A stretch of 64,000 nt of DNA, from the NCBI GenBank assembly GCA_964023275.1, contig OZ029928.1, positions 496,001 to 560,000 of the forward strand, in the 5' to 3' direction. The notes beneath the pieces were generated by a model. That model searched no databases and had not been told where the DNA came from. It saw nothing but the letters and a program-made list of their open reading frames with translations. Positions 19,101 through 55,100 of the stretch are shown one piece after another; the stretch's first letter is position 1; each line of letters begins with the position of its first letter. Source of the DNA: Norana najaformis. Its lineage: Eukaryota > Annelida > Clitellata > Crassiclitellata > Hormogastridae. Both the position numbers and the translations under genes were made by a program.

Positions 19101-22100
19101 GTATATCAGTTTATCAGAAAAATTACAATAACAACCCCCACTTAGAATAAGGCAGCCTGATATCGGACTACCGCCATGCAATGTATACACCTTCTTTGGT
19201 TGTTTTGTACTTTCTTCTATAAACAACCTGCAGCTCACATACATGAGTAATTATACGCGTTGCGGCTCATTTGACTCCAACACCCAAGTAGCTGGATTAA
19301 AAGGGCACGCCATGAATCCCAGCGATCGTCTGTTCGCACTAAGCGTGGCATATAGGCAGTTTTGAGCTGAAGATTAATGTGTGCTAGAATAGATAATTTG
19401 AAAAGTATTGATGTCGTTGCCTAAGCCTGGGATTTGATTTCTTACATTTGATATTTCGATGGCATAGCTATTAGCACTTATTTTAAACTGAGAAGAATTT
19501 TCATTAGTTTTATGAACGAAGCTATGAATAGTTTTTTACAGATTCCTCTCCAGTTATTACATTCAACAGTACGACGCCAGCAGCGGAAAACGAGAGCGTA
19601 CAATTTGCATGCACTATGAAACATAATGGATCAGTTGAACCAGCTCCAACATTACGACCGTACTTCTATTGGACGGATTACAATGGACAAAATGTCTCAA
19701 GTTCATACGATTCGACGACAGAGAACACAACTGTTTCTCAGTTAACAGTCACAGCTGGTCGACAAGATATTCTGCCATATACATGTCATGTCTATTTACA
19801 ACTGATACCACCAACCAATCCAAGTTACGCTAATAATACTCCTATTATCAACAATGCGGCTAGTTCTCCGACTATTTCAGTGCACTGTAAGTATATATTT
19901 TACTGTTTTGTAAATAATGAGATACTGGCTTATAGATTTTTCCTTTGTTTGCTAGTGACGCACCTAGAAGTCTGAACTATACTCAGCATTGATAGATTTT
20001 TAGAATATCTTTGAGCTAAGCTTTGTATTAGCACTCATTTCTTATAGACCTCGTGATCTCTAAGACTAGGTCCGTCAATAATTCAATGTATATTTGCAAT
20101 AAAATGTAAAAAACAAGTTCAAAGTTTAAGAATAAGTATAAATTGCATTACAGTGAAAATTACACACGAAACAGATTATGTAAAGTGCAAATACTGTTTA
20201 AACTTTATTGTTGGTTATCTGGCTGAAATTACATTCAAAAATGAATAACCAACGCAACGCAACGCTTCCATGTCGCTTTAAGTGCTTTGCCATTGCGCAG
20301 GTTCATATATCCAATTAGCCATCATCGGTGGGCTAACTTTCTCGTTCTATGCATCCAGTTCAGCGTCATTATATTGGACCTCACTCTTGTTTTCTTTCTA
20401 TGGTTAAAGTCTATCTAATAATTTTTTGAGGATTGTAGCGATTCCCCTAATATTCGCATTGTATCTGTGTTAAACAGGCGACTAGAGTGTACGTAGTTAC
20501 ATTAAATATTTGTTCCAGCACATTAAGTATTAATAATTATTAGACTATGGGGAACGGCTGAACACTGTCCACTGGAGTAGACCAAAAACAGGGATCCAGC
20601 GACAAAATTTTAAACTCTACAGTTGAGCGGAAATCGTCTGGCGGAGCAGACGACTTTTGGCGCTTATGCGGCATAGCGCAACGCTCAGTCTTGAGTTGTG
20701 CAGAAATTGTCGTCATCGGTAGACGTATAAAGGGTGAACTCTGACAACTCCCAGTCGGTCGTAAACTGTCGTGCGATCGACGGCTGTCCGACTAATGAAA
20801 GATTCGAAGAGGAATTTATCGTACGAGTCATATATTAGTTCGTGCGAAATTCGTTTACGGATTGTGAAGATTCTTAACGAGGAGCTCGCTTCCATAGCCA
20901 TTAGTTGCTCTGAAGTGCGTTAGGTTTGGACGACGTATATACTCGAATCTACATCTACGGTCGACATCAAGTTCGACAATGCAAAGCTAGCCGAAGTGGA
21001 GCTAATCAGGAAGAGAGCGTTCTCGGTTTCGGTGAGACTAGACTGCAAGACGTATACCACGGCTCCGTGAAGGACATCTTTGCGAATAAGAGAAGTGACT
21101 ACACTGGCCAACACATAATTTGTTGCCTCAAATGTTAGAACTGTTTCTGGGTATATTTGACCTGCTGATTCCAGAAAAGGCACCAGTTTTCTCCCAGCAG
21201 GTCTAGTTTTCGAGATATAGAACATTATGCCATATACCAGTCCTTGCCTCTGCTCGCCCATAAGACATAAGGCTATAGCTATAATTATGTAGTGCTCAAT
21301 TTATTATGTGATACACTAAATAAACATAATAATACAAATACTTAAAAGAAAATGGTAGCACCTGAAACTGTACTTATATGATACCAAACAGAACAAGTTT
21401 GTTATAAAAATTTCAAGTCATTCGACACCGAAGAAGCTCCTTTTGTACGATTTCCGAGTGTGGCATCTGCCGGAACAATCGCGCATAATATTCCAGCAAT
21501 AGTCTGCCATCATGTGTGCATCCCATCTTCCGTGATATCGATTTTCCATTGTTTTGATGTCTTGGTGAAATCTTTCACCTTGCTCTTCGCTGAAGTCACC
21601 AAGATTCTCTGGAAAGCGATCTAAGTGACTGTGGAGATAATGGACTTTAATGCTCATGTTGCAGCCAAGCTTGTTGAAATGAAGAAGCATATCCTCTACT
21701 AGTTGTGCATAATTGTCTGCCTTCTTGTTGCCAAGAAAATTTTTAGTTACAAGAACAAAGGAAGACCAGGCACAAGATTCGATTTCATTCACTGATGGTA
21801 TGAAAAGTGGGTCATTCATAAGTTGCCTGATCTGTGGACCATCGAAGATTCCAGCCTTCAATTTTTCCATTGTAATTCCTGGTAACTTGTGTACTATGTA
21901 TTCGAAGCACGAACCTTCTTTATTCAAAGCCCTGACAAATTGTTTCATCAGGCCTAGCTTTATATGTAGTGGTGGCAGTATGATCCTATCTCGTGCCACC
22001 AAAGATTCCTTGATTACATTTTGAGCTCCAACCACCATGTCTTTCCTCGAAGGCCAATCTTTTCTAGTCCAATGTTCATGCTTGGCTCTACTGTCCCAAA

Positions 22101-25100
22101 GACACAAAAAGCAGGGATACTTTGTGTAGCCACTTTGTTGACCAAGGAGGAAATTTACCATCTTCAAGTCTACACAAATTACCCATTGATGTTCTTTGTA
22201 TTTGATCTTTTCCAGTACTAAAGAGATGGCATTGTACTCTTCTTTCATCCTGGTCGAGTGACCGATTGGAATAGAACCAAATTTGTTGCCGTTATTTAAA
22301 AGCACACATTTCAGACTACGTTTTGAACTGTCGATAAAACTCATCTGGGCTGTAATCCGACAGACCAATTTTCTTCAATAAGTTGCTGATGTCATTACAG
22401 AATACTAGGTTGTTGTCTTCGGTAAAGAATGGCAGCAAATCCTTTTCTCTGTTTCTATAAATTGTAATTTTCGTTCCAGGCTGAAGTGCATTCTTTTCCT
22501 TTAGTCTGGACGCAAGCAATTCAGAGGACTCTTTGGAAAGATTTAAGTCCCTGATCAGATCACTCAACTCTTTTTGGTCAAAACGTTCACTGTGTGAAGT
22601 TGATTGGAAATCACTGTCACTGCCCCCACTTTCTTCACTTTCGTCATCTTGTCCGATATTGGACATGCAAGTGTCATCGTCTGAGAGCTGAGGTAGTTCG
22701 CGAAAAGGTGGAACTGGTACAATATCCGAATGCGGAACAGGTCTCCTGGCTGAAGGTATATCAGGGTAAGACAACTTGTGACGATTATTTCGATTGATGC
22801 CTATGATATTAACCATACAAAAGTAACAGTCGTCGAAGTGGTTTATCTGTTCCCTCCAAACCATCGGTACACCAAATTTCAGGCAGCTTCTCTTTCCAAT
22901 TGTCCAGTGGCGCAATTGTTCAATACAAGTTTTGCATACTGTATGAGGAGCCCATTGCTTATCTTGATCTCCAAGTTTGACACCAAAATAACCTACATAT
23001 GCTCTTTTTACAAACTCAGAAATCGGTTTCCTGTTTGCTTTTAGTGTGTATTCCCCACAAATGTAGCAGAATATGTCTGGATGGTTAATGCAGCTCCGTC
23101 TGGAAGTAGCCATAACCTTAAGGATGTTCGCATCTGAGGAATTAAATGACTAACCTAAAAAATAGTAAGAACATGTAGTTATTTAATGCTCACATTCACA
23201 GATTGTTCTTGCGACCAACTCTTAATATGCCCTAAGACGACTGCGGCTGCTCTAGCTTTCAGGAGGCGGTTTATATAGGCTATAAATGCTGACTTCAGCA
23301 TAATCTATTTACATAGTTCGAAACCATGAAACGCTGTATAAGCACAAATAAATTCTAAATGAGGCCATGAATTTAGTGCTGAGTAAGCTGTAGGCTACGG
23401 AATAGTTATTTCGTTGAATCAGCAATATCTCAGCACGCGGCAAGATATGCTGATTTTACATTATAAGGATGTAGGCATTATATGAATCAGCAAGAATTAT
23501 AATTAGCCATAAATAAAGCTTATTATGACATTTTAGTTTTGTCAAAGACATCGTTTAAAGAGTGGACTGGGTTTTCTTTACAAAATCGACGATATCTCAG
23601 AAACTAGACCTGATGCACTCAATCCAATGACATTTTCTGAATCAGCGCCCAAAATTACTCCAAGAACAGGTCTAAAACCGAAGGCAACAAGAAAAAAATT
23701 TTTTTCTGTTGGCCAGTGCTATCAATCGACGAGAAGATTTATCATCCAAACATCTACCAAGTCAGAAAGAAGTGAGGTAAAGCGAGCATGCCAACGAGGG
23801 AGGTTCCTAACTAAGTAATATAAAGTTAACTTAGTAAATAAGCTGGTCCACGTAATTAGGTAGGAATCTGTGATAGATTAGAAAAGTAAAGGTTAATTGA
23901 TCTTACTGACTGCATGAACTGTGGTTTAACTATTATTAAATCTTCATATACTTAAAACTGAAAGAGGTAGCCTTGTGCGTTACCCATTTATTATTAGACA
24001 CTATGCTCTACGCTGATCATCTTCTGTGCATTTAAAAATTGACGTACAGAGGATCCACTGGTAGTCTGTCAAGGATTTCCATCTCAGTATAACATTACAT
24101 ATATATACATATACATGTGTGCATCAAGACACTTAATATCCCGCCATTTAGTACTTCACAAAAACGCTGCACACATGGGTATCTAAACGACATATAGTGT
24201 TTTAGCACACAGTTTGCAAATGTTTGCTGCATCGAGTAAAATGCAACGTAACATAAATGTGATGGCGAACTGTTCCAGGAGGACGGTCCAATGTGTGAGA
24301 AGGCACGATGGGCTCGATTTGCATATCTTCACGAGTAGCAGAGGGCGACGATCGCCGGTGTCATGCGAAATTTCATCCGGCAACAAATTCCTTCCGGCCA
24401 CGCCCACTGCCGTTGCCAGGATGAAATTTTGCATTGCATACGTGCGAAATCTCTTCCGTTGACAAATACCTTCCGGATGGTTATAGGCGAATTTCTAAAT
24501 AATTGGTCTGTTGAGGAAGCAGATTACTCTCCATGCAAAGAAATATTGTAATTAGTGCGTGTAAGTGGGATACTGGCCTAATCACATTAGGATCATGCAA
24601 TTAAATTTAGGACAAAATGTGATTCTGACGGACGAAGCGGTGTTAAGTTGATCGTAGGAGCGTAGTTCTATTTTTGGAAAGAAATTTCCGCGACCGAAAA
24701 GTAAACCCTTATCGCACGAGGAGTCGATGCTAAAAGATTGTGCTGAGTTTGGTAAATTAGGTCGAAATGAGTGAAATCTTATATGAGTGCATCGATAGCA
24801 TATAATTACTGTATAGATAAACCATTTGAAAGTGCTAAATGATAAAGTCGTTCTGTTTTTAGAAACAATTTTCTGCGTCATCCAACAAGCATGTTACATG
24901 CAGTGATAGCCTATATCTCAGTGGTGGAATCGCAATCGTAATCTCGAGATTTCTACAGCGCCCAACGAAAGCCGCGCCGGGGGAACATCTTATTCAAAGG
25001 CGCTCAGTCAAAACATAATCGATAGGCAAAAGGGTTCGGTTCCAGGTCAAGATCCAAAAGTCAGACGGAGAGACAGCGTGGCAGCTAAGGGTGGTGGTGG

Positions 25101-28100
25101 TGTTTGGGGTTGGAGAGGAGAGAGATAACAGGAAGAAGGGGTGTCAGAGTACGATCTGTGAAAAATGAATGTTTTGAGTAAAACGCCGAAGCAGAAATTG
25201 CAAGCGGTGGAGCATCGATGAGTTGATATGATGGGTCAGAAAACTGTCGCAGTTCTGAGGGAGTTTATTACAGAGTGGTGGGGCAGCTTTGGCTATGGAG
25301 CGATTACCAAATTTTAAGGATGACGATTACCAAATTTTAAGGATGAGGTGACGGGAGGGCGGAGAAGTGTTAGGGCAGAAGAGGAGCTGGTTGAGCGACG
25401 GGGGGCGGTGTTTGGGATTGGAGATATATATCAATGGTGGAATGTGAGAAGTCCACCGAAACTTAATGACAGTTAATTCAACATAAAAATACTGTTGATG
25501 TAAAGGGTAGTCGACGAATTCTTCTGGACAGTTGTAGAATGTCTGAGCAAACTTGCTGAATTACTACTTGATGGCATTCTCAGGCTGAACCATGACAACA
25601 GCATGACTAGTCCACCACTGTGATTTGTTCATTTGTTGCTTTTCAGAGGATCCTAAGTAACAGACCTAAAATATTTTAACCTGTGTGTGCGTGTAGCTCC
25701 AGGCCATAGGCTGCAGGTATAGAAGTATAAAATCGACTTCATTATTTATGTCATAATGTCGCAATAGAAGTTGTTCCTATTTGCTTCTTCCTGTCGTCAG
25801 CATGCCAAGGTTTAAAGTTGTTCCTTTTAAAATTATTGGTTTTCCAGGGTTCCTGCAGCACAAATTTTGCATCTCGTGCATCACTCCCAATCACGTGTTG
25901 CAGTTTTCTTCATGTTGCCTTCCACCTGAGCCAAGCTAGTTCACCGGACTCAGGTCCATGATTTAAGTCAGTTTGTGGTTGTATAACGAGGAGTTAAGGT
26001 AAGTTTGTCACTTATTTGTAATGCCTCTGAAAAGGAGTCTTGTGAAGTCGAGTTTACGTGTAAACAACAACAGCAATCCAGCAGCTGAATGACCTTTCCC
26101 ACAGCTAGATTTGGGTAAAAAAAATGGCTTACAGTAAAACCAAAAACTATCAAGAACGGGTTCATTGTTTTTATGTTCCTTTTATTTACTGTTACCCTCA
26201 ACAAAGACTCAGTACAGTTGTAATTCAGTATGATAATTAAACTGCAAATGGAATGTTTGCAATCTGGCTTAGAAGCAACGAGAGGACAAGAACAAAACTG
26301 CAGGTAGCCTACGGTAATGCAGACCTATGCGACATCATTTCCTGAAATACACCACGATTCACTTTGTTCTGGGAGGTCATAACCATTTAGGTGACACAAG
26401 ATATGTATTATGTAGTACAGAACAGCAGAATCCGAATAAACATGTTTAATCCTCCGAGAGTGGAACATGATTTGTAAACAATTGTTCTGCTTCGTCACGT
26501 GTAACACCACCCGCTTGCTGAATGGCAAAGATGACTGCCTAAAAAGAAAGCACAATACAATTAACCTGTTCTGTGATACATGTATTTTCTGTAAAATTGA
26601 CGGAAATTGTGTGTTCATAACCTTTCTGGATGCTGTCACAAGGACACATTTCAGTGTCCTTTGTAAAACGCTCATGTCCAAGAAAATGGATACATATATA
26701 TCTGACAAATTGCATGCTGTCACAAGAGCTTCGTCAGCTAGTTGATACGTGGGGTGCTGAATACAGAACTCAAATATAGCTGGCTGCAAGTTGTCCATTG
26801 TGGTTGAACCGTTTCTGTTATTATTAGTGAATATCATAAGTGTTTCACCTTGTGATACTTACTTATACCACTAATATGCAACTACTTATGCAGAAGTAAA
26901 AGCACATACTTATTTACACGTCTCTATGTGAATACCTTAGAGGCATGGGCTTGGTGTTGAAAGATCACTCAGTGATCCAACTTGCTTTGGTAATTATTCA
27001 TAAACATAAATACAAAGATCACATACCTCAGGAAACCAGACATCAGTTATGTAGTAGATATCACTGTGTGCTTTTTGCGGTGCAGGGCTTCACACAGGTA
27101 CCCCTCGAGGATCCTGGTTATAGCGATAACCTGCAAAATACACCAGCAAAGTTACTAGCTGATTACCTTTCACTGCAACAGATGCTGCAGTTACAGGTAA
27201 TCTCATTGTAAATGTCATGTTACATTTATCTGGGTCTTCAGTGTTAGGAACCTTGGAACTGTGCTCTATGGTCCATGCTCAACCGTCATACCTACAAATA
27301 TTGCACTCGATCAATGGACGCTACAACTCTTGTTGTCCCTCTAGCAGGACAGCGTTGGGTTCCAGAGTGTTCAGGGTTGCTGGTCCACGTCCTGGCGTCT
27401 GCTTTCTGCGATCCATCGGAATTCGACCCAGCATCTGCAACGGTATATGATTTCTGACTGCATTTTGACTTGAAGCGATCATCGACTGATGCCTCAAGCA
27501 TTATGAGAACAGTGTTACAGAAGGTTAGATCAACGTTCCCACTCCTTTTCATTTAGTTTTTTATACATCACATAGCAAATTGCCGCAAAATGAGCAACTG
27601 TCACTAACATCAGCATCATTTTCAATGGGTCCAAACCCCTGTAGCATCAGGCACTTTGCTCTCTCCATGTCTTCTTTTTCTTCATGAGCAACATGTGGAT
27701 CGATGACTGTTTTCTTTCTAGTACCACTGCTACTAGATGTTCCTGAAACACAACAAGTTGCTTACAAATGAAATTTGCCAATACAATGGCACGAAAGAAC
27801 TGTTGCAGTTACTGTAGAGGGAAGCATATGTGATAGGCATCCAAAAACATGTGCTTTCTGACCTGTAATGTAATGTCATGTTACAAGAACTGTAATATGA
27901 ACTATGCCCCTGCAATATGTGACTGATAACACAAGCATTGCACTTTCGGGCAACAGATGCTAAATGAATATCTTCATACATGCATACAGTTGTGTATTCA
28001 ATTTCATGTCAGAAACACAGATTTAGGTTACACTCACTTTAACCTCAGTCGATGTAAGAATGAAATCCACCAGTTTTCTTTGATGCGTCATCTGCTGTTC

Positions 28101-34100: not shown

Positions 34101-37100
34101 AGTCACATCATAAACTGTCAGGGCATTACTTGTGATGCCTCAAGAGGGTTAAAACATCCTCAAATTCCAAAACCACTTCAAGCACATGCGCGTTCCATAC
34201 ATCATCTACGCCGATTTCGAAGCGCTGAAGAGTGCCGGTGGAAGGTGCGACCATGAATCCCAGCAAAAGTAACACCAGACTCATCGCCAAGCAGGAACCG
34301 TGTAGTTTCTGCTATGTAGTAGTTCGCTGCGACAGTCGCGCAAATGCGCCTGTACTCTACCGGGGGTGAGAATGCCTTAGAAGAGTTCTTGCGACGTTTG
34401 CAAGGAGAACCAACCAGGAAAAAATCGTTATGACATCGGTCGACTGTCCAGCTCTCCAAGCGGCGACCACGTGCCACATCTGTGGTAAGACGATAGACGA
34501 CAACGATTAGGTTCGCGACCACTGCCACATCACCTGTAAGTATCGTGGGGCTGCCCACAACAATGCAACCTCAAGCTGCGCATATACCCAGACAAGTGCA
34601 AAGTGTCCGTTGTCTTCCACAACCTACGAGGCTATCAATCACCTCAACATGCATGCGCTAGGCAGCTGTGAGGCAGTGCAGAACCATGAAATCAGCTGCA
34701 TCCCAAACAACATGGAGAAGTGCATGACGTTCGGCCTGGGGCAGCTACAGTTCATCGACAGCCTCCAGTTCCTAAACAGCTCGTTGGACAAGCTAGCGGG
34801 AAATATATCATCGGCAAGACCTGCAGATTACTAACAGCTCCATCGACGATGTGGTAAAGCTAGGGCTGTTACAGCGCAAAGGCATCTACCCATACGAGTA
34901 CATAGACGACTACCATCGGTTCGACGAGGAACAACTCCCGCCACCGGAGGCCTTCTACAGCCCGCTCGCTCGCGAAAGTATCAGCAATGCGGATTACCAA
35001 CGTCCCAGCGAGTGTGGGAGGTATTCAATTGCAAGACTTTGGGCGACTACCACGACCTGTATCTCCGTACTAATGTACTCCTCCTAGCAGATGTTTTCGA
35101 GACTTTTCGAGGAACAGCGATAAAGCACTACGGCCTCGACCCAGCGAACAACTTTAGCTTGCCAGGGATGGCCTGGGATGCCTTGCTGAAAAAACCAAGA
35201 TCATCCCAGCGCACTGGGGTCATCGAGTGCAAACTGGTCTCAACCGGCGCTAAAAATGCTGAGGCAGCACTGATGGCGCTCGGTGAGTCACCGACTGTGC
35301 TCAAAACCCGGTGTGATCATAAGACGATCACGTAACGATCACGTGACTGGCGTCAAACGGGCGGTGTGCAATGAGTCATCGGCGCAGGGGTCACCCGAGT
35401 GCACTGGGGTCATAGAAAGTGCAAACTGGGCTCAAACCGGCCTGGCTACTGGCGGCGGGGTCATCGTGTGTAGAGTACACTCGATAAGCGCGCGAGCTTT
35501 ACAGCGGACTGCAGTCGGGGTCAACTGAATGCAAAGTGGGCTCGAACCGGCCTTTTACATCTACTGAAGGTTCATGTGCATCTCCGGTAGAGGTAGAGCA
35601 TTGATTGCGCTGTTAAGCAATCCGCCACCCGTCTCCTCTTTTTCAGCCACATTCTTGCTCTTCTTAGTACCGCAGACGACGCAGGTTCCCTTCATAGTAG
35701 GTCGACCATTTGGAATCACTACACGCGTCACATTTAAAGTTTCCGTACGTTTTTTTACATCGGAGGCAATACATTCTGGCATATAAAACCTGACGCTTAA
35801 CTCTATATGGTGTTGTAAGGCACGTGTAGAAGGCAGATTGGGTTAGGTCTGTGGGTGACACGTACCCATGCAACATTCTGTTAGGAACACGTGATCATGC
35901 ACCTGTGTTGAAGGAGTGTTTGAGGGAGTGGTTAAAGGAGTGGTTTTCTCGTTGGTTGAGGAGAGGGTATAAAAGAGGGAGCTTAAACTGTTGTAAAGGA
36001 AGTTCTTTGAGTCGACGTTGTTACCGTCTGATATTGCCGTTTTGGAGTCGAGTGTTCGAAAATACAGATTTTAAACCAAAGAACGTTGTATGCTGGGTCG
36101 GCCCTATACGACTACGAGCCTAATCGTTTCTAGCATGCAACAGATGGGGGCTCGTCCGAAAGAAATTCATCCGAATGTCGTTCGTCTGGAGCAAATTCAT
36201 CCGAGTGAGGCTCGTCCGAAAGAAATTCATCCGAAAGAGATTCGTCCGAAGCAAATTCGTTCGACAGAGGGTCGTCATGACGGTCAGCCCATTAAAGTGC
36301 AGCAAAGGGGATGGTACAATCGGATGAGGACTCGCAGGAACCTGATGGTCGTGCGAGGCAATCTTCCGCCGAGTCGGAATCTACGGTTTCGGGGATGGTG
36401 CAGTGCAGTTCATCAGTCGTATGCCGTTGGTATGATCGGTCGGAGCCAGGCAGTCATCCTGTCGGTCTGTCGGTAGACAGCCGTGTCATTCAGCTGGTGA
36501 GCCAAGCAGTCAACCGTGTCGGCCATTTTGTCCAGTTGGTTATCCAAGCAGTCATCCGTGTTGTTCAGCTAATCACGACTTCAGTTCGAGTGATGCGTTT
36601 CAGTCTGCGGAGCTGGTGGTTGCTTCCAATCGTGTGACGGGTCAAAGTCTACGTCCGGTCTATCACGTTCGGCCGGGTGTGATGATGCCGAGGACATTTC
36701 AATCAAGTCGGGATTTTCCGCCAACTGTCAAGTTTGTACATAATCCTTGATATAGGTTTACAGGTGTTAACGCTGATCTTTGGTCCAGGATACCGTTTGT
36801 ATGGGTTGATCCTAGAGTAAGAGGAGCTTTGCGGTTTAGGTTAAGTAATTCGAGGGGTATTGGCATTTGAGGTTCGAATAGGCTAGTGTATTTTAGATGT
36901 TTAGGTTGGACTGTTTTCAAGTTCACGTTTTTCTTTGAAAGGAAAACAAATGTGGCATTGACTATAGTTTATAAGAGAATTATTTATGATAACTTATGAA
37001 TTTTGCTTAAAATGTTATTTGGTAGTTGTGTTGAGGGAAAGTAGTTGCTTAAATCCTGATTGTTTTGCGATATATAAGTTGAAGTAGTAGGATGGTCCTT

Positions 37101-40100: not shown

Positions 40101-43100
40101 CGATCACGATCTGGACATCGAGACAATCAAGAATCACAATTTTAAACCGGCAAGCGAGATTCCCCAAGCCGATATAAGCGAAGTTATTGACAAAGTATAA
40201 CCGGTATACGCTTGGACCCATAATAGAGAAAGGCAACCCCTACAGACCTAGTAGCGATCGATCGATAAATAGATGCGCTTCGCGCATACAAAACCCGACT
40301 TTGACTTATAGAAGACGTATGGCGTCTCGTGCCGCATACGGGAAAGGGTATCGCGACGCCTCTGAAAATGCAAGGACGTCGGTTTGGTGAACTCTCCATC
40401 GACCCTGTGGCACTGATGGCTGGCAACTTAAGGGCATTTTACGGTGAAAACCTCGTACTCGAAGCTCCTGCCGACGAATCGTTGTACAGCCTCCTAAAGA
40501 AGCGTTTCGTTAAGACTAAACGGTACACACAACAGGCGATAGAGACTTTCAAGAAACTGGTCAAACTGGCCAGACTACCCATTCGCGGGCTGACAAGCAA
40601 AAAACACCAGTTGATCAGGGGTGAAGGTTTACAGTACTTCAGCGACCCAGACACCCTTGTAGGCCGGTTGCAACTTCCAGTGGCTTCTAAGGCGGCAGGC
40701 AACACTGGACTGGATAACGAGATATCTGTGATCCTGGACGAACTGATGCGTTCGGGTGCGGTTCCTAAAGAGTTAGCACTCCAGTTGAACAGAAGTCTGC
40801 TCGTGGTATAAACTTGGAAAAATGTCTCGAGGCCATTCGAGATCTGGCGTTGCTGCTCACCCAGCGGGAGAATCCCAGCGTGATAGTCACCTCAAACACC
40901 AAAGACTGGACCAGATTTTTCAATTTACAGCTGTACCTCGACTCAAAAAGGTGTTTCGAGTTGGCCTTTTAAACCTGAAGACCTACAATTCCATCCCCAA
41001 CATCTCCCGCAACAACAACAAGTTCCACAATAGTTGGAATGGTGGCGAATCGTGGAGGATAATTAGGTTGCCTGAAGGGAGCTATGAGATCACGCAAATC
41101 AACGCCGAGATTCAGCGGCAGCTTGCGGCGAGTGGTCACTGGGATGCTGCGAACAAATCCCACTACATTACCGTAGGGGCTAACGTCTCGACCCAACGAG
41201 CCTAGGGGAAAATATCCAGCCCCAATTATCAGGTAAATATGGCCACATCCACCATCCGGGCCACGCTCGTTTTTAACCCCACAACGCTTGTGGGTGCGAC
41301 TAGCTATCACGAGGCAGCAAACATTCTTTCGGTTAGCAGCATCTTGGTGAACTGCGACATAATCGGTGGTTCATATCGCAGTGATGACCAGCTACCAATA
41401 ATCTACAGCTTCTTTCCGAACGTATTGCCAGGCTACAAGATAGTCGAGGCCCCGAATAACCTTGTGTACCTAACTGTATTACCGGCAGGTAATACAGCGA
41501 ATGCGAGTATGGCTAATAGATCAGAACGGTGTGCAATTAAACTTCCGCGATGAAACTGTTACTGTACGGTGTCACATTCGCAGCTTGTAGCAACAACAAT
41601 GTTCATCTTTACCAGTCGTAACCACACCACCCATGTGAGGCGTTATGTCGTGAGTGGTGGGTTTATCGACTGGATAAGCGGCGCTGTGCGTATCCTCGGT
41701 TCGGCTGGTCGATCCACCGCTTTCTTCATCTTGGCGAACAAGGACACGATGTGGTTGGTAGTGTAGCGAAATCTGGTGCTACAACAGCCGCTGCGGTTAA
41801 GCAGATTGTCGATGTAGTAAAAGCAAAACGTGCTGCTACAGCAGCCGACAAGGTAAAAAAGCCCCCTGCCCCTCTAGAGAAAGTGCTAAACGAGAAAAAT
41901 ATAAAGTTCCTGAAGCAGCTAGCGACTACTGAGAGTCCTCTTGTACCGGCGACTCAAGACATTAATAGTCGTTTTGCCGGATCTGGGTTTAAGACGCTAC
42001 AAGCGGTCCCCGGAAAATGTCGTCGAGGGTGCAGGGGTTTGTTTCTTGGTCCTCAGTAATCTTTCAACTTCACCGAACGGTGCCCATGTTGTATTGAAGA
42101 CTGACATTTTGTCTGCTATATATTGGCGACCGTAAACGTTGCGAGTGATATGTTAGACATCGCGGAATCGGTGCCGGTCGACGAGAGCATCGAATCTTTC
42201 GAATACCGCGAGTATGAATCGTAGAATCATGATGCCATCAACAATGGACAAGCAATACAAATCGATATTCAAAATCAAAACGTTTTCACACAACCGTCCA
42301 AGAGCTACCTTCTTGTGGAGGGTAGGCTCGTATCCACAGGTGCGGCCTGTGTAGTCGGAACGCTGATCGCACTCATCAACAATGCCATCCCGTACATGAT
42401 CTCCCAGATTCGGTACTTGATTAACAACACCGAAATAGAAAATGTGATGTCCTCTGGGCAAACCACGACGATGAGGGGTATTTTGATTTATGGCGATGAT
42501 TTCATCAAGGCGGAAGGCTTAAACATGTGTTGGCAAAAAGATACGACTGCAGCAGCCGCTCAAATGAATCTCGGTTTTGAAGCGCGACGACAGCTGATTA
42601 TTGCTAGGCCAGACCCAATCGGTTCATTGTCTTTTGTCGTCCCGCTGAGACACCTGTTTGGCTTTTGCGACGACTACCACAAGGTTGTCTATGGAATCAA
42701 ACTCTACTGCTTAGTCGGCAAGCCGACGCTGATGCTATCTTCCGAGATCAGGCACCGCTGAATGGGCGAATTGAGCTGATAAAACTTTCGTGGTTCATGC
42801 CGCACGTTATTCCCGCACTGGAGTATAAGAACGCTGATAAAGCGGATCGAGAACAAGGTCAAGATACCCGTGGCATTCCGCGCTATGCAGTGCGACAACA
42901 TTGCAGTACCACAAGCAACAACTTTCTCATGGAGGCTGAGCGTGAAATCTGGCACCGAAAAGCCGCGTTGGATTCTGGTCGCATTCCAGACGGGTAAAGC
43001 CGCGAATCAGCAGCAGGATCCTGGATTATTCGACCACGTTCGAGTTCGCAATATCTATGCCATGCTGAACAGCTATCGATATCCGGTTGTAGACATGAAC

Positions 43101-46100
43101 TTAAGCTTTACACAGCTAAGGACTTCTCGCGCGTATAACGCTCTGCGAGACTTTAAGGAGGAATTCTATGATATAGACGCGCGCGAATCTTCATCCCAAG
43201 TGACACCCACCGATTTCGTTGACTTTTTTCTGATCTTCGTCCTGGACGTGCGTAGACAGTCCGAGCTTCTAAAGACCTCCGCACAGGACATCCAAATCAA
43301 GGTGGACTTTGACGCCGCAGTTAAACCAATACGACGGCCTTTGCAGTCTTGATCAGCGATCGTCTGTTGTACCTCGATACTGATGGCAGCAAGTTCAACG
43401 CCGTTTACTAGCATTTAGAAAAGACCTCCCCTTTCAATTCGTTCTGAATTGGCTTCCGAGTATATTGCCTTCGGCCTTACGTTGACCGAGGGGCAAAAAG
43501 TAGTACTGGCTAAGGCCGCCCGCGATGGCACTGGGACCACGATCCGGCTTGCCTTTAACCAGCTTCATGGGGAGGACAAACTGGGCCTGACAAAGCGACA
43601 GATTGCGCACATCCAGAAAAAGAAGGCAAATGCTCCTAGTGCCGAATTGAGGTTCACCAAAACGCAGCTGAAAAATATGACGAAGATGGGTGGATTTCTC
43701 CCACTGTTGGGTCTCCTCCTCGGCGGACTTGGTGCGGCCGGTGCGTTGGCTGGTGGGTCACCTGGGGTGGCAAGAGCAGTACATTCTAAACAGGCCAACA
43801 ATGCGGCTCTAGCAGAGGCTGAGCGTCATAATGGTGAAGGTGAGGCTCAACTGCGAGGTGCTGCTGGTTCTGGATTGTTTCTCGGGCGTGAGACTCGTGG
43901 TGGTTGTTGTCCGCTGTGTAGAGGATCTGGCTTATATCTTTCAAAAAAAACTAGAACCGCTAAGCAACCTAGATACCGAGAGGGCTGCTAAAGCCCTATC
44001 ATACTTTCGTGGTGTGTTTTTTGCGGGATGGTCTTCCTTCAACGGTGCATAACAAGGAATGTGAAGTGGTCAATCTAGACTCCAGTTCTGGCAACGGCAC
44101 TCAATGGGTTGCTTACCATAAACTCTACTGCCTACTATTTCGACAGTTATGGACTAGATCCACCTTGCAAACTCTCTCGATTAGGACGCAGACATTCCAG
44201 CTCCAGGGTCCCGATGATGTGATATGCGGTCATCTCTGTCTGCTTGTACTCAGAGAGCTTGCTGTAGGCCGAAAATTTGAAGACATCGTACTCGAACTAT
44301 GTAACTAAGTACATTTAATCTGTGCGCTCTTTTTTCGCAAACAAAAAATGCCGGTTGATAAGTTTGGAGGAGGAAGCTGTGTGTCAACGGGAGAAGTGGG
44401 GCAGTTTAACCCTGCTAGCCTCGTCCGCAGGACAGGCGATACCATGTCGTGGATTCTCTCGGCTGGTGGGTTTCGGCTGACAGACATCGGAATGCCTCTG
44501 GTGGGTACGGATGCCGCGACGAAGTGCTACGCTGATACCATTGACCAGAATAACCTGCAGCTTGCTGGTGGGACAATGTCTGGCAACCTCGACAAGGGAG
44601 GCCACAGAGTGACCAGGCTTCCAACAGACGCACCAACATATGACAGCGATGCGGCAAGCGTGAGGCAAGTGATGAAGGTGGTCACCGACGCCATAACAAA
44701 GAACGATAGAGCCGTTGCATATGACCAACAAGCGGTCTGTTGACACCCGAAACGCTGTCATTAGGAAGTACGTTAACGATCAGGTTGCTGTCGTTAAAGG
44801 TACGCGGATGAGAAGGCCATCGCTGTCAGGCAATATGCCGACGAGAAGGATGTAGTCGTTAAAAGGTACGCAGACGAGAAGGATGCTATCGTTAAGAGAT
44901 ATGCGGACGAGAAGGCCACCGCCACCAGGCAGTATGCCGACGAGAAGGATGCTATAGTCTGAGACGCACACGTAGCCAAGACCGGCGATACCATGTCAGG
45001 TGATCTTTTTTGTGCCTCAACTCGCCATTAATATGGACGTTGGGGGACCTGAGATCGAGATAAAGCTTGGAGGTACCTCATCCGCGACTGCGCTGAACTA
45101 TGGTGTACGGATACATAGGGTGGACAATACAGCCTGCTGGCAAGCCACATGGAACGCTGAAGGGTTTACAATCTACCGTTGTGATGGAAATCTGCACTTT
45201 CGCAAATTCGAGGCTGACGGGACTGCAGGGTCCCGAAAATACTCAAGAAGCAGCCACTAAAAGCTATGTTGACAACGTGATTATTCAAAGCAATGATGGG
45301 TACATACCACCCTTGAGTCAAAATAATTCAAAATCTGACTTTATAGTATACGCAAGTTTGTTCTACGATGTTACACCAGCCGTATATGGCATTTAACCCA
45401 CTTGCTGAGAGTGAGTGCGTAACTGCTGACCAGGCGGCTGGAGCTTGGATCCAGATTCAGTGTCCTACAGCTGTATGCATTTGAAAAGTGCGCCTCGCCG
45501 GTCGGAGATCTAACAGAGAACGGATTAAGCGGCGGGAACTCGAAGGCTTCAGCGGTAGAAGATTCGCAACTCTTCATAGATCTACCGTCGTGTTGGGTGA
45601 ACTGGCGCAGGAGTTTGTCGTTACAACAACTTCACCATATAGTATATACCGGTTAAGCGTAGTGACCGCGGAATCAACCAAAACAGGGCTTTCACACTTC
45701 CAAATCTTCATGCGGGCACATCCGTGGAGATGGCAATCGACCTCCCCAATTAAAAAACTTACCATCGGAACAGTTAGTGTTACATTGTCTCTAATTATTA
45801 TCTCGACGAACTAAATGGCGACCGACATGCACTTCAAAATCCTGGCGTACCTAAGGCAGAAGAGGGAGACCGACATGACTAAATATCATCTGAACTGTTA
45901 GTTTCACTATTAGCCCGGAAGGACTAACTAGTATTCATTTCATAAGCAATACTATCAATGGAAGTTTTGATTTTAGCTGTATATTTAACACGTCCAGACG
46001 TCGAGATGTTAAAGTCTTGGTACGCTTGATGCACAGTTATACTGGTGGATTTCCTACTGAATCAGATGTCATCCTAGTAATAGAGAAACTATAGCCATGC

Positions 46101-49100
46101 CACAGTATCCGCCTCTTACCGATCCTATCTTTTCAACCGAGATGACGTCGTCCACATTCCGCCTGCAGGAAATCGGAGAACTCGAAACCTTCCTGAGATA
46201 TGAGGTAGAAGCCCGCGATCGTCTTCACAAGAAGTATCGTAGAGCAGTGAATGCGGCCGATGGTGCGTCTGCCGCCCTTGCATTTATCAGTCTTGGGATT
46301 GGTGTTGGAGGTGCAGCCGTGTTGGCGACTGGGGTTGGACTCATATCCGGTCTAATCCTTGAGGGTTTCACCGCGATGGCTAGCCTGCTTGATGTCGCTG
46401 GCGTCACTATCAGCCAGAAATATTCTGAAAAAGCGGCAAAGCACGAAGCAGTTCGTGTGCTTTGCTAGTAGCAAACTTGGCACCGTCCACAGCCACATTT
46501 CGGAAGCGCTGGAAGACGATGGTAAGTACAGGCTGATCCTCGACGACATTGAAAAATGTCGGGCTATGAAGCCTTCCTGAAATCGAAGGAGGATACTACA
46601 GACTACTCTGTCGAAGCCTCCTCCGAGTCCAAAGGGGTCATTGAGTGACTGAAGTCAAACCCCCATTTTAATCTACTTAAGTCAATATCCAGAAGGTCAG
46701 TTCACTAAGTCAAACGTCATCCTATGGTGGATGAGCAATTTGGAAATGGCAAGTCTTAAGCTGAGAACGAAATAACACAAGCGATTGAGCAGAACCAACA
46801 CGTGCAGGGACAGAGTGAAAGCAGATGGGAAGGATCCAGGATGCAATGAGAATTACATGAGGAAAATTTTGCAAATGTAAGCCATGTGTGTAAATGATTG
46901 TTCGTGTATCTTTGAAGATCCTCCATCATTACCGGAAATTGTGGCCACATCTTCAGGATTTGTTGCCTGTGAAGCAAAGAATCTAACGTGTTACTCGGAT
47001 GCAAATCCTCCACCAGATTACAGTTGGGTGGATCTAACATCTGGAAATGTAACAAATGCACAGAAGATCATTGCAGAATACGGAGTTAGCTACACCTGTT
47101 TTGCATCCAACGCAATCAGAAATGTCGTCTACATCAATTCATCGATGCACTATGAAGCCGCGACTGCGAATAGTACATGCAGTAAGAATTCGTATCATGC
47201 TCTTAATTAAAAGCGATAGTTTCAAGACGCTAGATGAGAGTTTCTACTGCGTTGCTTACAGCATAGCAAGCTATAAGTCTCTCTCATTAAGCCTTGACTT
47301 ACCGGCAGTAATTAACAATGACTTACTTTGGGAAAAGGATGAAATGAGACTAAATCTGCAACAGTTATGTGTTTTTCTTTTACTCATGAACATTTACCTA
47401 GTATATGCATGTCCTTTGCAGGACTGCATTATAGCGATTTCTTCATATTACAACTTAATGTCTCTGTGTCGGTGTTGATTACTTACTAAAGATTACTTAC
47501 TAACTTAAATTAGGTTCCTAGGGTTCACTATATACTCGTTTGAGTCCGCTATGTGATACAGACATTGATCATATGCTATTGTTCACCTTACTCAAGTATT
47601 GACAGTTATCATTAGTTTATAAATAGATTATGGCTCGTTAAAAGTCTATTTTAAAAGTTTGATTAAAGACAGAACAATGTATTATATCCAATAGTCCAAT
47701 TTACACTTATGCGATGAAAGAATCTAATTACCTTACTTAGAAGGCCAGCAATTATTTATGCTAAAGGTAATATATATATTTTAGCTTCCCCAAGATGAGC
47801 TTCTCATGACCGATTCTCCAGAGCCCTTCCGCAGAAGCATGGATCCATTTTCACCTTTTGCGTGGCAGTGCGATTTTCCACAGAGTCCTTGAACGTATAG
47901 TGGCAATATGGCGACTCCTCTATAACTCGCAGGATTATTACTTGATAGACAAGCAATCACTATTCTTTCGATGATTTGTTGATCGAAAGTTCCTTAATAC
48001 GACGACCTAACTCGATGGTGAGTTAGTCCAAAGTTCACGAACAAAGATATGCTCAAATACGACGCTGTAAGTTCCCTCGATTAGCTAACACTCGCTACGA
48101 ATTGACGTCGTCAGATTTAGCTTCAAGTTCGATACTCTTCGAACGGTAAGTCTTTAAAGACTGCTCCTTGCAGCTAAGACTTGGATTAAACAAGTCTTAA
48201 ACGGTGACTTGGTATCATCAAGTCGACCGAATAAACCACAAGATCGAGAAATACGAGGCTTCCACAACGACCATCGCGTCTGCTACCTTTCGTATTTCAA
48301 CCGTTTTCACGATTACATCCTTTGCAGAAGATCGTCTGCTGATGATGTCAGATTATTCAAATTCTTTACTATCATGCTTGGCCTTGCAGTTTCAACGGTT
48401 AGACCGATCGTTTGGTGAGTTATGGCTACCGCTCAAATTCGCCTCGTCATGGTTAAACAGTTTATGTTGAACAACGGATCTCCTTGGCGTGCTTAGTCAA
48501 GATCCAGCAAACCCCCCAGTAAAACCTATTTATTATTCATTAATTAGCTAAACTGGCCTTCTTCATTTAACTATTTATTTACAATATTGCTGGCCGGCTT
48601 AAGCTAATACTAAAACTAATCATTCTTAACTGATTTCTAAACAAATTATGATAACTAGTCAGTTAGAGATAAAACTGGTCAAGTAAGTATGTACAGAATT
48701 AAAAATCAAATGCGAATTAAAGAGGACGACTAGCTACATGCATACAGTGAATTCTCTAATTGGCAATACATAACAATAGGCTTAAACATACAAGGAGCTA
48801 AAAATTATCGACATTCACTCGATACTGCAGCCCGTAAGGATCTTCTGATCTCACACAGAAGACTTGAACTACAGTAGAGACAGCTCAAGGAGCATTATCA
48901 GCTTCTTCTTCTTCTTGTGGTTCTCTGCCCTCTAGACAGGTTCATACGTCCAATGGCGCCACTCTTCACGGTGCTGAGCATCTCTTTTCATTCCGCTGTA
49001 TCCATCCGTGATCACCCAGTCCAGCAACATCTGTCTAGGTCTTCCTCTTGTTTTTCGTCCCTCCATTCTTCCCTCGATAATAGTTCTTACGAGTGAGTCC

Positions 49101-52093
49101 CCTCTCATTATGTGGCCAATCCATTTCCTCTGTCGACTTCTAATTGTTCCCACCAAAGATCTTTCTTCTTCCACTCTTTGCAGTATCTCCTCATTGGTAA
49201 TGTGCTCCGTCCAGCTGACTCTCTCCATCCTGCGCCATATCCACATCTCAAATGCTTCCAATCTTCTGATGTCTTCCTTTCTCAGAGTCCATGTTTCTGA
49301 TCCATACATAACCACGCTCCAAACCAAGGTTTTCACCAGTCGTTTCTTCAGGTCCCGATTTAGTTGCCCTCTCATCAGTTCCCTCCTTTTACAGAATGCG
49401 TCTTTTCCCATAGCTATTCTTCTCTTTATTTCAGCATGGCATTTCGCATCTTGTGTAACCACACTTCCCAGGTAGCAGAATTCCCCGACCTGTTCTATTT
49501 CTTCACCATTTATAGTGATCCTGACTGTCGTTACCTCTCTTTTACTTATCTTCATAACCTTTGTCTTTTTGATGTTTATTTTCATTTCATATTCTGTGGA
49601 GACACTATTCAGACGGTCCATCATTCTCTGTAAACCCTCCAGACTGCCCGCCAACATCGCCTGATCGTCTGCAAACCTCAGAGCATTCAGCAACCTGCCT
49701 CCCACCTTTATTCCCTCTGTCATGTCCTCCAATGCCTCTCTTATAAGTTCTTCAATGTATGTGTTGAAAAGCAGTGGTGAAAGTGGACAACCTTGTCTCA
49801 CTCCTCTACCTATTTTTCCAGGCTCCGAGTATTCTCCTTCGATTCTTATCCTTACTTTCTGGCCCATGTACAGGTTTCCAATAAGCCTTCTGTCTTTCCA
49901 GTCCACACCCAGTCGTGTAAGTGCATGCATTAACTTCCTCCAATCTACTCGATCGAATGCCTTCTCGTAATCTACCAAGCATACGTAAATGTCCTGACCA
50001 TGTTGGAGATTTCTTTCTGCTAGTACCCTCAAGGCTCCAATTGCATCTCTTGTTCCTCTACCCTTCATGAACCCAAATTGATCCTCTCCTAGAAAGCCAG
50101 TTGCTTCTGTCTTAGCTTGTATCCTTTTTGTGAGAATTCGTAAAATGATCTTGGATACATGAGTGAGAAGGCTGATAGTTCGATGGTCCTCGCATGCTGG
50201 TGCATTTGGTTTCTTTTTGAGCGGGATCAAAATGGTCTGCAAGAAATCCTCTGGCCATGCTCCAGTGTTGTAGATGTCCTGACATATTCTTACCAATTCT
50301 GCCCTTGCCTTTTCTCCTAGGTTCTTAAGCAACTCAATCGGTATGTTATCAATCCCCTCAGCTTTATTGTTTTTCATTTCGTTAATGGCCGCCAGTACCT
50401 CCTCCTTCATCACATCAAGTCCAGTAACATCATCCCTGTTATCTGGTGTGCACTCTACCTGGAGAGCCCCGTGGTTGCAGTTGCCCATATATAATTCTTC
50501 CACATAATCTTTTCAACGACTCCTGATGTCATTGGGATCCTGTAGTATCTTGCCACACTTGTCCCTGACTGCAATTCCTCCACCAATATTCGGTTTCTTT
50601 GCTAACGTTTTAACCTTTTCGTATACTAGATCATGTCTTCCAAGCTCCTGTAGTGCCTCTAGGTCATCACATTGCTCTTCCCACCACTTTTCTCTTGCCT
50701 TGTCCGTTGTTCTCCTTAGTTTATTGTTGAGTCTTTTATATTCCCTTCTTGCTTCTTCTGTACTTTGGTGTTTCCATTTTCTTCTTCCTTCCATATCCTG
50801 GAGCATTTCTGTTGTGACCCATGGTTTTCGAGGGGCCACCCCCACCTGGAATCCCACCGTCTCCACTGCCTCTCTAAGCACTGTCTGCTTAAGTCTCCTC
50901 CATCTTTCTTCTGTTGATGCCATGTTTCCTGTTTCCATGCGTTCCTCTATCCTATTTGATAGTTCTTGACTCTTCATTTGCAGTTTTTCCTTATTCCACT
51001 TCTGTCTTTTTATCCTCTTCTTCTTGAGGAATTTTAGTTGGAGGCAGAACGTCATGGCAACCAAGTTATGGTCCGTGTCCGCATCAGCTCCGGGTAGGGC
51101 TTTAGAGTTCTTTACACTATTCCTATATCTTTGTCTAACCATGATATAGTCCAGCTGGTAACGTGCCTCATCACCTGGCGACTTCCAAGTGTATCTGCGC
51201 CGTTTTTCTTGCTGAAACCAGGTATTTGTTACCACTAAATCTTGACGTCGGCAGAACTCCACAAGCTTCTCCCCTCTGTCATTTCTCTTCCCCAACCCAT
51301 ATTTACCTACACATTTTTCTTGCTCTCCCTCTCCAACCGATGCATTCCAATCTCCCATGACAATTATGTAATTGCTTCCCTTGATGTCAGCAAGTTTTTC
51401 TTCTATTATCTCGTAAATACCGTCAACCTCCTCTTCCTCATGTGCTGTGGTGGGCATATAAATTTGCATGATCACAATGTCTACTGGATTAGCCCGTAAC
51501 GTCACCATGATCAACCTATCTCCATGCTTCTCCACTCTGTATATACACTTTGCGAGCGTTTCCTCCAACAAGATGGCCACACCATTTTGACTCTCCCTTC
51601 CGCCGGTGTAGATAACCCTAATTCCCCATCCTCCCTCATCTGACCTCGGATAGGCCCAATATGTCCAAACCTGCCCTTCTCATCTCTCCAATAACATTGG
51701 CCAACTTTCCTGGTCTCAGCATCGTTCTCACATTCCATGTCCCTACTCTTATCTTCTCCTTACAAGGATTTCGCTTGTTGACGACCTTAGAGGCCTTGTT
51801 CCCTCTCCTGCCGAACGCGACTCTTTCCGAAAACTGGATTGAATCGTTGACGTTGTTGACTGGCTTCTTTTTTGGCGTCATCTTCAGTTTAACTCGGGAT
51901 AATTAGGGAGGTGGTCTCCCGTCGCCTTCCTCCCGGTGTTTTTTAACGAGACACCATCTCCATGCGTCGATGAATTCCAGTGTCCGTCCTTCAGGCTCTT
52001 CGCCCTTGGGCACTCGCATATACCGGCGAGTGCCCCAGCTTATAAATCTTATATTTCAGATTCGTTAGATATGATTATTATGTTATTGTTATC

Positions 52094-52134
<41 letters not shown>

Positions 52135-55100
52135 GCGACAATATTGCAACATTGTGACGTTTTATGGATTAGTCCAAACTGGCTATTATCATTAGTTTAT
52201 TATTATTACACTGGATCACACGAAAAATGTTTTCGCCTGCTACTAGGCATATGTTATGTGTACTGCACTAAATCGAATCTACTGATTCCAAATCTGAAGT
52301 CAGATTTTGTGTAGCACGTCAGGATCTTAAGATCAGCAGCATACATGCTAATAATTATGCAAACTCTTTACAGAACTAGTATTTCCTTATAACTGTGTAA
52401 TTTTGCAAACTCAGAGTATTCATAACAAGAAACAAAATGTTATTCTTTTATAACTTGAAATTAAAATATGTTTTAAAATGTAACATAAATATATGTATGT
52501 TACTCAGATGAAAGCATACATTTCGAAATTTTGTCTCTAGCTTAACTCTATACGAGTTCAAAAGTGCTTTAGACACTTGCTCTTGCGCTTGTGAGTGGCC
52601 GCTGTTGCCCGCTGCAGAAACCAGCAGTAATCGCCCATCATGTTGGAATTGCAGTGGCCCTGATATCTTGCTTCAAAGGTGGAGATGTCTTGATGGAATC
52701 TCTCTCCATGCTCATCGCTTACACCACCCAAGTTTGGTGGGAAAAAATCCAGATGGGAATGTAAGAAATGTATTTTTAGTGACATCCGGCAGCCGAGTTG
52801 CTTATATGCTGTTAGCATGTTGCTAACGAGTTCAGCAGAGTTCTCAGCTCGGTGATTCCCAAGGAAGTTTTGCACCACCACCGTACATGCATCCCAAACG
52901 GCAAATTCCAGTGGGTTGAGCTTGGTTCTAAATACAGTATCACGCATTAGTTCGTGGATTTCTGGCCCAATAAAAATTCCAGCCTTGAGCTTAGCATCAG
53001 TTTTGACGGCTCCAAATTTATCTCTCAGATACTGGAAGCCTTGTCCAGTACGATCCATTGCCACTACGAAATTCCTCATGAGGCCCAGTTTAATGTGAAA
53101 TGGTGGTAAGTACACTTTCAATGGATCAACCAATGGTTCGTGTTGCACGTTGTGCCGACCAACAATGTGCTCAGATCTAGGAGGCCACAGTTTCACTTTG
53201 TAATGGTTGCTGTCATCACGACTGTTCCACAAGCACAAAAAGCACATATGTTTTGTGTACTCCAGCTGTAGGCCTAGAATAAGTGCTACCACTTTGAGGT
53301 CCGCACAGATGTTCCATTTGTGGTCTGAGTAGTTGATCACTTTCAAAATGAGTTTCATTGAATCATATGTCTCTTTGTGGCCTACAGCGTGGGCTATAGG
53401 AACAGACGGCTTTTTGTTACCATTGTGCACCAACACAGCTTTCAAGCTCGCTTGGTTGGAATCTATGAACAGTCTCCACTGATCAGGAACGTATTCGCAA
53501 CCTAAATTCAGCATGAGACCGTTCACGTCAGTACAGAAACAGATATCATTTTCCAGTTTGTAATATGTAGCTAACTGTTTGTGACGATAACGGAAGTGTG
53601 ATGTTGTGGTACCTTTTTGAAGCAAGTTCCACTCCCCTAGTCTGGAGGCTAACAGTTCAGATTTCTCCTTTGACAAAGATAGGTCCCTCACCAGATCATC
53701 TAACTTACCTTGCCTTATCAAATGCGGCCTACCCTCTTCCAAATCTTGATCACTGGATTCATAAACAGTAACGTCATCTTCTGTATTACCATCAGAACTG
53801 TCCGTTTCATCAGCACCCGCAGCAGGCGGAAATGGTACTGGATTCTCTTCACCATGCGGCACTGGCTTTAGAGCGGACTCGCAATCAGGATAAACGATTT
53901 TAGACTTATTTTTCTTTGAAAATCCAGCAATTATAGTAATGCAGAAATAACAGTCTGCATGATGATTTCTTGGCTCGCGCCACACCATAGGCACAGCAAA
54001 CGGCATTGAATTCCTTTTGCCATTCAGCCACTGTGTAAGCCCAGAGTAGCACACGGTGCAGCAGACATGAGGTGACAAACTTTTATCCTGGTCTCCGATT
54101 TGACATCCAAAATAATACTTGTCAGTAATCATCACTCTCTTAGTTAACTTCTTGCGCTGGTCACAAAGAGTATATTTACCACAAACATAGCAAAAATTGT
54201 CTGGATGGTTAACACAGCCTCGCCTATTCATTTCAAAATTAAATCTCAGACACTAACTACAGCTATATAAGAAAACTTCACCTTTGTTCTACGCAATCTC
54301 GCCTTATATACTGGTATTGATGCTGACGTCAGTTCGCTGACATGCCCAATCATGTCTAGCGGCTGCTGCAGGCTTGCTGTTAGGAATATTTCAGGCGACA
54401 CTTGCAGGCATGCACGTATCACTGGCAGCAATCGTGGAGACACATACAACAGAATGTACAGACATAACCGAAAACGAGTCCTTACGTCATTACTTGAATG
54501 CATGCATAACTTAAAATCTAGACGTGCTGGGGAGATTCTGACTTCATATTTGGAATCAGCACATTTGAATCAATATAAAGCACATGCATTACTTTCAGTA
54601 GCAAAATCGTTGTGATCCAGTGTTATTATTATTATTACTACTACTACTAATACCACTTCCACTACTACTACTACTACTACTACCACTACCACTACTACTA
54701 CTACTACTATAATAATAATAATATTAATAAGAAGAAGATGCACAAAGGACTGTAACCCCCTTTCTAAATGCTCCTTTGTCTAGATCTAGTGACTATAGAT
54801 GGCAGTCACTTTACATTACCTCATGGTACCTACACAGCTTGTTTATGCTGTAGGTAGATATACATGTTAATTGGGGTTTAGTCTCCTGATATGATAATTA
54901 TAGGTCAGACTCAAATCAACATGTAATATCTAGCGGAAATTGTAATGATATTACAATAGCTCGTATCTTTCCACTACCATCTTGTATTATAATGTCTGAT
55001 TGAATAAGAATGAACAAAGTCAATTGTTGCAAATCAATCAATGTACTATATATAGTTCAATGACTTAATTAATGCTTAATTAAGGCCAGCTTCTTATCAA

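Follow-up and report, generated by a model that had tools for sequence, protein, structure and literature searches.

A 64,000-nt stretch of the genome of the annelid Norana najaformis (the window; C16:496001-560000 in a host genome of 608,420,607 bases and 17 contigs) contains two related elements, here called copy 1 and copy 2, which are very probably (probability about 0.93) cut-and-paste DNA transposons of the animal Chapaev3 group of the CMC superfamily, with a DDE transposase encoded in a single gene. This assignment is made because their termini, target, size and motifs match the published hallmarks of Chapaev3, and it rests on descriptions of that group rather than on named Chapaev3 sequences. 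The original prediction, made from the sequence of the window, had proposed two DNA transposons with a candidate transposase, a proposal borne out by dispersed copies with the same ends, by target duplications and by empty sites in the host genome. It had also placed the protein near CMC, which is right, as Chapaev3 is an animal CMC group (PMC4079192, PMC4411706); its description of the protein as uncharacterised does not hold at the level of the group, whose published features the elements share.

Ends and target duplications of the two elements

The components of the two elements, in window positions, are as follows.

21099..21101, no strand: copy 1, left target duplication CTA
21102..23718, ORF on minus strand: copy 1, probable Chapaev3-type DNA transposon, 2617 bp
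21102..21113, plus: copy 1, left terminal inverted repeat CACTGGCCAACA
21165..21171, plus: copy 1, left subterminal CTGATTC, putative transposase site
21418..22368, minus: copy 1, transposase C part, 316 aa, with the DDE and zinc motifs, in another frame than the N part
22316..23113, minus: copy 1, transposase N part, 265 aa, with the Cys-rich N-terminal domain
23271..23277, minus: copy 1, TATATAA, 164 nt upstream of the ATG, putative promoter
23639..23645, minus: copy 1, right subterminal CTGATTC, putative site
23707..23718, minus: copy 1, right terminal inverted repeat
23719..23721, no strand: copy 1, right target duplication CTA, in the context A-CTA-T
52206..52208, no strand: copy 2, left target duplication TTA, within an ATT microsatellite
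52209..54622, ORF on minus strand: copy 2, probable Chapaev3-type DNA transposon, 2414 bp, frame open
52209..52220, plus: copy 2, left terminal inverted repeat CACTGGATCACA
52282..52288, plus: copy 2, left subterminal CTGATTC, putative site
52558..54231, minus: copy 2, transposase, 557 aa in one open frame, with D257, D311, C330/C333, H379, H488/H493 and E510
54304..54310, minus: copy 2, TATATAA, 79 nt upstream of the ATG, putative promoter
54553..54559, minus: copy 2, right subterminal CTGATTC, putative site
54611..54622, minus: copy 2, right terminal inverted repeat
54623..54625, no strand: copy 2, right target duplication TTA

The borders at 21102-23718 and 52209-54622 had been predicted to the base. 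In both elements the inverted ends are perfect for exactly 12 bp and no further, and they are flanked by GACTA and CTATC in copy 1 and by TATTA and TTATT in copy 2. Because copy 2 sits in an ATT/ACT microsatellite, the window by itself does not show how long its TTA duplication is; a size of 3 bp is assigned to its family because other members display it.

Chance is a poor source for such ends. Among the 208 CACTG/CAGTG pairs that lie 500-4000 bp apart in the window, two match at 12 of 12 bases, both with identical 3-bp flanks, whereas 200 dinucleotide-shuffled windows yield three 12/12 pairs in total and none with identical flanks. Past the 12 bp, the subterminal arms continue as the long imperfect inverted repeats that had been described, scoring 77 and 85 against shuffle maxima of 33 and 45 (0/300 shuffles each). 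Between the two elements, one of the four pairings of ends (copy 1 left with copy 2 right) scores above all 300 shuffles. The motif CTGATTC lies approximately 60-80 bp inward of all four ends. Upstream of the genes, the similarity of the two elements beyond TATATAA is at best weak, its score being met by 7/500 mononucleotide shuffles. A search for additional copies in the 64-kb window found none.

The predicted transposase

The two elements encode the same type of protein, as had been claimed, with 50% identity in the C part (298 alignment columns) and 44% in the N part (257 columns). The frame of copy 2 is open, and that of copy 1 is broken into two overlapping open reading frames (ORFs), with 8 bp fewer at 22338 than in two intact relatives. 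Differences between the copies at codon positions 1, 2 and 3 amount to 0.43, 0.28 and 0.66 over 296 codons and to 0.43, 0.37 and 0.66 over 250 codons, and fourfold-degenerate sites are nearly random (14/33 and 9/28 equal). Because of this codon-position pattern and the near-random fourfold sites, the split between the copies is probably old and the protein appears to have been under selection since then. A 251-protein tree puts the two in different clades, and the distance between them ranks at the 96th percentile among 1500 sampled pairs. Copies 1 and 2 are members of two separate, deeply split families, each amplified independently.

An alignment of 232 proteins, including those of the window, shows which residues are held constant; 231 of these proteins have letters at most columns of the C part. 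D257 is present in 231/231 and D311 in 230/231, in agreement with the residues originally proposed as catalytic. The C-x2-C pair had been placed correctly between the catalytic D and E, with C330 and C333 in 231/231. H379 is likewise universal (231/231) and is preceded by L, forming an LH motif, in 229/231, and the H(4)H motif comprises H488 (230/231) and H493 (231/231). For the catalytic glutamate two candidates had been left side by side. E510 occurs in 229/230 and E507 in 227/231, and in another alignment, of 85 more widely spread proteins, E510 never varies whereas E507 almost never does. The second histidine lies 17 residues from E510 and 14 from E507, the corresponding distance in RAG1 being 20. 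Given its greater invariance and its RAG1-like spacing, E510 is the likelier catalytic residue. Near the N terminus, C6, C14/C17, C58/C61, H90 and C94/C97 are near invariant.

Relatives of the protein are abundant: three protein searches, whose results overlap, found 1389, 2135 and 2392, with the best 120 of each listed. Among these listed matches, no protein is named Chapaev3, and those labelled with an organism (P0026, P0046 and P0169) are all called hypothetical or uncharacterized; their hosts are the leech Helobdella robusta, the moth Mythimna loreyi and the tunicate Clavelina lepadiformis. For the best 120 relatives of the first search, the source contig is 2000-2999 nt long in 94 of the 119 that were sized. 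This is roughly the length of one element, as would be expected if assemblies break at repeats. Searches of viral contigs and of prokaryote genome contigs found no relatives, and a search of plasmids gave nothing useful.

Domain searches contribute little. Across 85 relatives, the best Pfam E-value is 0.0015 (zf-AD) among the 25 of 47 families listed, and zf-AD gives a weak match in 35 of the 85. The window protein P0001 has no match in NCBIfam or PHROGs. A single-sequence search of the PDB gave no match at E up to 1, and two profile searches with E up to 10 gave one and two weak hits, all of them unrelated. Rfam at gathering thresholds returned nothing useful, and a literature search combining CACTGG ends, transposase and target site duplication found no paper in the collection searched.

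Genome-wide copies and empty sites

The family of copy 2 numbers at least 78 scored matches, the window copy included (78 of 6429 first-look candidates were scored), with an internal stop in 27 of the 78. Fifty-eight of these copies, again including that of the window, were read, and 53 of them contain a pair of terminal inverted repeats 2.0-3.2 kb apart (one, L028, is doubtful at 3061 bp). Both 12-mers are exact in 42/53. Identical 3-bp flanks border 36 of the 53, namely TTA in 22, TAA in 13 and TTG in one, so that TWA accounts for 35/36, and the duplication is preceded by A and followed by T in 33/36. Of the 53, one has identical flanks of 2 bp, none of 4 bp and three of 5 bp, and control flanks offset by 1, 2, 3, 4, 6, 9, 15 or 30 bases are identical in 0-7. 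Of the YTA duplications that had been predicted, the length of 3 bp thus stands and the sequence does not: the target is mainly (A)TWA(T), to which the CTA of copy 1 is an exception.

Insertion is seen directly at L007 and L030, two members of the copy-2 family that sit in two copies of another repeat, each copy being uninterrupted at the point where the other is filled. At the L030 insertion, the filled site reads ATGATAA-element-TAATCC and the empty site GTGATAATCC; at that of L007, the filled site reads TTACAA-element-TAATTAGG and the empty site TCATAATTAGG, with the left copy off by one base. These reciprocal empty sites, from the kind of alignment that the original prediction had called for, display directly a 3-bp duplication that arises on insertion.

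Fifty-one copies of this family could be oriented. Their mean identity is 97.8% (96.4-99.7%), and their tree is star-like, with terminal branches summing to 0.504 versus 0.035 for internal ones; the family probably stems from a burst from a single source. The subterminal CTGATTC is found 61-74 bp inward in 46/51 left ends and 49/51 right ends.

Some copies of this family depart from the usual arrangement of flanks. Five of the 51 oriented copies (L017, L035, L036, L052 and L054) carry an extra TA between one end and TWA and do not form a clade; three of the five double as exact 5-bp duplications. Four others (L010, L038, L043 and L055) combine TAA at one end with TTA at the opposite end, and are perhaps chimeric. 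These oddities could stem from imprecise cutting in which two bases of the former flank travel with the element, from a 5-bp stagger, or from recombination between copies.

The family of copy 1 comprises at least 126 scored matches, including the window copy, from 5256 candidates. In 86 of the 126 the match lies within an open frame of 579 codons; the matched part is free of internal stops in all 126, and 98 of them score the same, at 720.3 bits. Against the window copy, two intact relatives show 22 and 15 substitutions in approximately 2617 bp (>99% identity), and 17 separate them from each other. Because these relatives are so nearly identical to the window copy, recent and perhaps current activity of the copy-1 family is likely, and it looks younger than the copy-2 family. 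Ten relatives were sampled at their ends: both ends are found in eight, and the right end is absent from its expected place in two. All eight two-ended relatives have identical 3-bp flanks (TAA in four, TTA in two, TAT and TTT in one each). A further relative, D1, does not have its right end in place; compared with one of the intact relatives it shows 50 differences in 2624 aligned bases, a count that includes an unrelated tail.

Ten matches of the copy-1 family cover query residues 1-316 within a frame of 318-321 codons, nine relatives thus sharing the shifted frame of the window copy. Five of these nine were sampled at their ends; four have both, in each case with identical 3-bp flanks. The idea that the 8-bp deletion of copy 1 itself had been amplified was rejected, because the nine same-frame matches span 957 nt against 948 in the window, and because D1, the one of the nine that was read inside, instead has one extra homopolymer base at the spot of the 8-bp loss. 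Slippage, trans-mobilised variants and assembly error are possible alternative sources of the shifted frames.

Probable affiliation with Chapaev3 and alternative readings

In its published description, Chapaev3 has 5'-CAC/GTG-3' termini, a duplicated TWA that lies between A and T, a 556-aa transposase bearing the motifs C(2)C, LH and H(4)H, and a consensus of 2289 bp; its members mostly have one exon, include non-autonomous derivatives, have undergone repeated horizontal transfer and in one case reside in a bracovirus (PMC4079192). The present elements resemble the Chapaev3 members Garfield, Merrow and Conan (PMC4079192) in their CAC..GTG termini, their 3-bp duplication of a mainly A-TWA-T target, and their DDE transposase of 556-557 aa, which bears the same three motifs and is encoded by one exon within an element of 2.3-2.6 kb. 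Unlike the elements here, Garfield and Merrow have two exons (PMC4079192).

Several observations weigh against the assignment. It was made by description, and Pfam gives no match above cut-off for the window proteins or 10 of their relatives. Copy 2 carries FH where LH is expected. The copy-1 family seems to choose its target more loosely than the published TWA of Chapaev3 would suggest: window copy 1 is flanked by CTA, two of its eight two-ended relatives are flanked by TAT or TTT (six by TWA), and the A/T context is present in just five of the eight, versus TWA between A and T in all Chapaev3 elements examined in the published account (PMC4079192). In the copy-2 family, 17 of 53 copies have non-identical flanks, so that the expectation of genomic copies ending at CACTGG between identical trinucleotides holds in the main but not throughout. 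Finally, RAG1 profiles match weakly: the score of the CND profile against the N part is met by 4/200 and 2/200 shuffles, and that of the core profile by 18/100 and 22/100.

The alternative that survives best, although improbable, is that the elements represent another lineage of the same clan, such as animal CACTA/EnSpm, Lanisha or an unnamed sister of Chapaev3, whose ends and target have converged on those of Chapaev3. Ends of the CA..TG type, duplications of 2-5 bp, and C(2)C and H(3-4)H motifs are found throughout the CMCT clan (PMC12730594), and it favours this alternative that the match to Chapaev3 was made by description. Against it, the mainly A-TWA-T target, the LH motif, the 557-aa single frame and the element size together form the published Chapaev3 set. 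EnSpm and Lanisha are set apart by target, motif set, size and absent Pfam domains, and not by a tree.

The nearer members of the clan can be compared individually. Chapaev proper duplicates 4 bp and CACTA 2-3 bp. The elements share CACT-type termini, a 3-bp duplication and C(2)C with CACTA/EnSpm, but have a marked TWA preference and no match to Transposase_21, either in the window proteins (E up to 1) or, for the 85 relatives, among the 25 of 47 families listed. They share clan, termini and motifs with Chapaev sensu stricto (DUF1280, PF06918; PMC3985635); for Chapaev as a whole, published duplications are 3 to 4 bp. PF06918 has no match to the window protein P0001 and none, for the 85 relatives, among the same 25 listed families. 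The 3-bp duplication here also differs from the 4 bp of Chapaev proper.

Membership in the Transib/RAG line proper is very unlikely, even though its architecture is similar. Like Transib and RAG1, the predicted protein has the order D, C(2)C, H(4)H, E and three N-terminal C-x2-C pairs. RAG1 has its counterparts at D600, D708, C727/C730, H937/H942 and E962 (PMC4914335), with Cys pairs in its CND at C110/113, C175/178 and C210/213 (PMC3124419), and the distance from D to C(2)C is 19 residues in both proteins (D311-C330 here; D708-C727 in RAG1, PMC4914335). The best RAG1-core alignment, at a shuffle-level score, sets D311, C330/C333 and H379 opposite D708, C727/C730 and the LH of RAG1. RAG1_imp_bd gives weak, sub-threshold matches in 4 of the 85 relatives, one of them at residues 54-110. 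A zinc domain termed Chapa is common to RAG1, Chapaev and Chapaev3 (PMC4411706), and the N-terminal cysteines, the weak RAG1_imp_bd matches and the CND profile match are suggestive, but only that, of such a domain in these proteins. Unlike Transib and RAG1, however, the elements have different termini and a 3-bp duplication, with 3-bp flanks in 36/53 versus 5-bp flanks in 3/53 copies of the copy-2 family, and there is neither a significant profile match to the RAG1 core nor, at E up to 10, any RAG1 or Transib structure among the PDB matches. Distant kinship to Transib/RAG within the clan is likely, and Chapaev3 has been described as a distant relative of Transib and the RAG recombinase (PMC4411706).

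A host gene family lying between chance inverted repeats, a notion to which the merely hypothetical or uncharacterised names of P0026, P0046 and P0169 lend some colour, is refuted by the empty sites and by dozens of dispersed copies with the same ends and target duplications.

Proposed mechanism of transposition

Starting from what is observed in the genome, namely the ends, the target, the 3-bp duplications, the empty sites, the copy number and the conservation of the protein, a working model for the Chapaev3-type elements can be drawn in which protein-DNA contacts, chemistry and fold are taken by analogy from the clan. The transposase would be transcribed from its single gene, with the upstream TATATAA as a putative promoter. 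Its N-terminal Cys/His domain, together with the subterminal repeats that contain CTGATTC, may hold the protein on the DNA, and the catalytic site would consist of D257, D311 and E510, braced by the zinc pairs C330/C333 and H488/H493. Cutting would occur at CACTGG, and the element would be joined into A-TWA-T with a 3-bp stagger, whose repair by the host would leave the TWA duplication. The two families are separate and probably old, and each was recently amplified in this host; window copy 1 has lost its frame and copy 2 has kept it.

A bolder version of this model appears doubtful: that the copy-1 family is active now with loosened targets (CTA, TAT and TTT as well as TWA), and that some members of the copy-2 family went in through a variant reaction, with an extra TA or a 5-bp stagger left at one of the ends. 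If true, this variant insertion would provide a natural glimpse of how 3-bp cutting (Chapaev3) relates to 5-bp cutting (Transib/RAG).

Other features of the window

Approximately 630 bp from copy 2 is a non-LTR retrotransposon (48935-51580, minus strand), with an RVT_1 match at E 1.2e-34 and an endonuclease match below cut-off. At 42315-43349 (plus strand), two frames match both parts of the double jelly roll-like domain PF21738, and 33-bp tandem repeats occur nearby at 44798-44951. Adjacent frames at 13616-14711 (plus strand) match an integrase core (rve, above cut-off) and a zinc-binding domain (below cut-off), and are read as the remnant of a retroelement or similar. A 324-bp direct repeat (35819-36142 and 38646-38969; 98% identity, 2.8 kb spacing) possibly represents the long terminal repeats of an element that is short or non-autonomous. 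Finally, an inverted dispersed repeat of approximately 470 bp (74% identity) is found at 7885-8336 and 24929-25397, with related pieces at 1378-1496.

Implications

These results argue strongly that a common type of animal protein, for which each search found between 1389 and 2392 relatives and which matched no Pfam model above cut-off in the proteins scanned, is the transposase of Chapaev3 elements. They add two recently amplified families to a group whose kind was already known, and their added value lies in the genome-scale proof and in the youth of both families. Given the kinship of Chapaev3 with Transib and RAG (PMC4411706), a young family of this group would be a convenient subject for learning how the clan cuts DNA.

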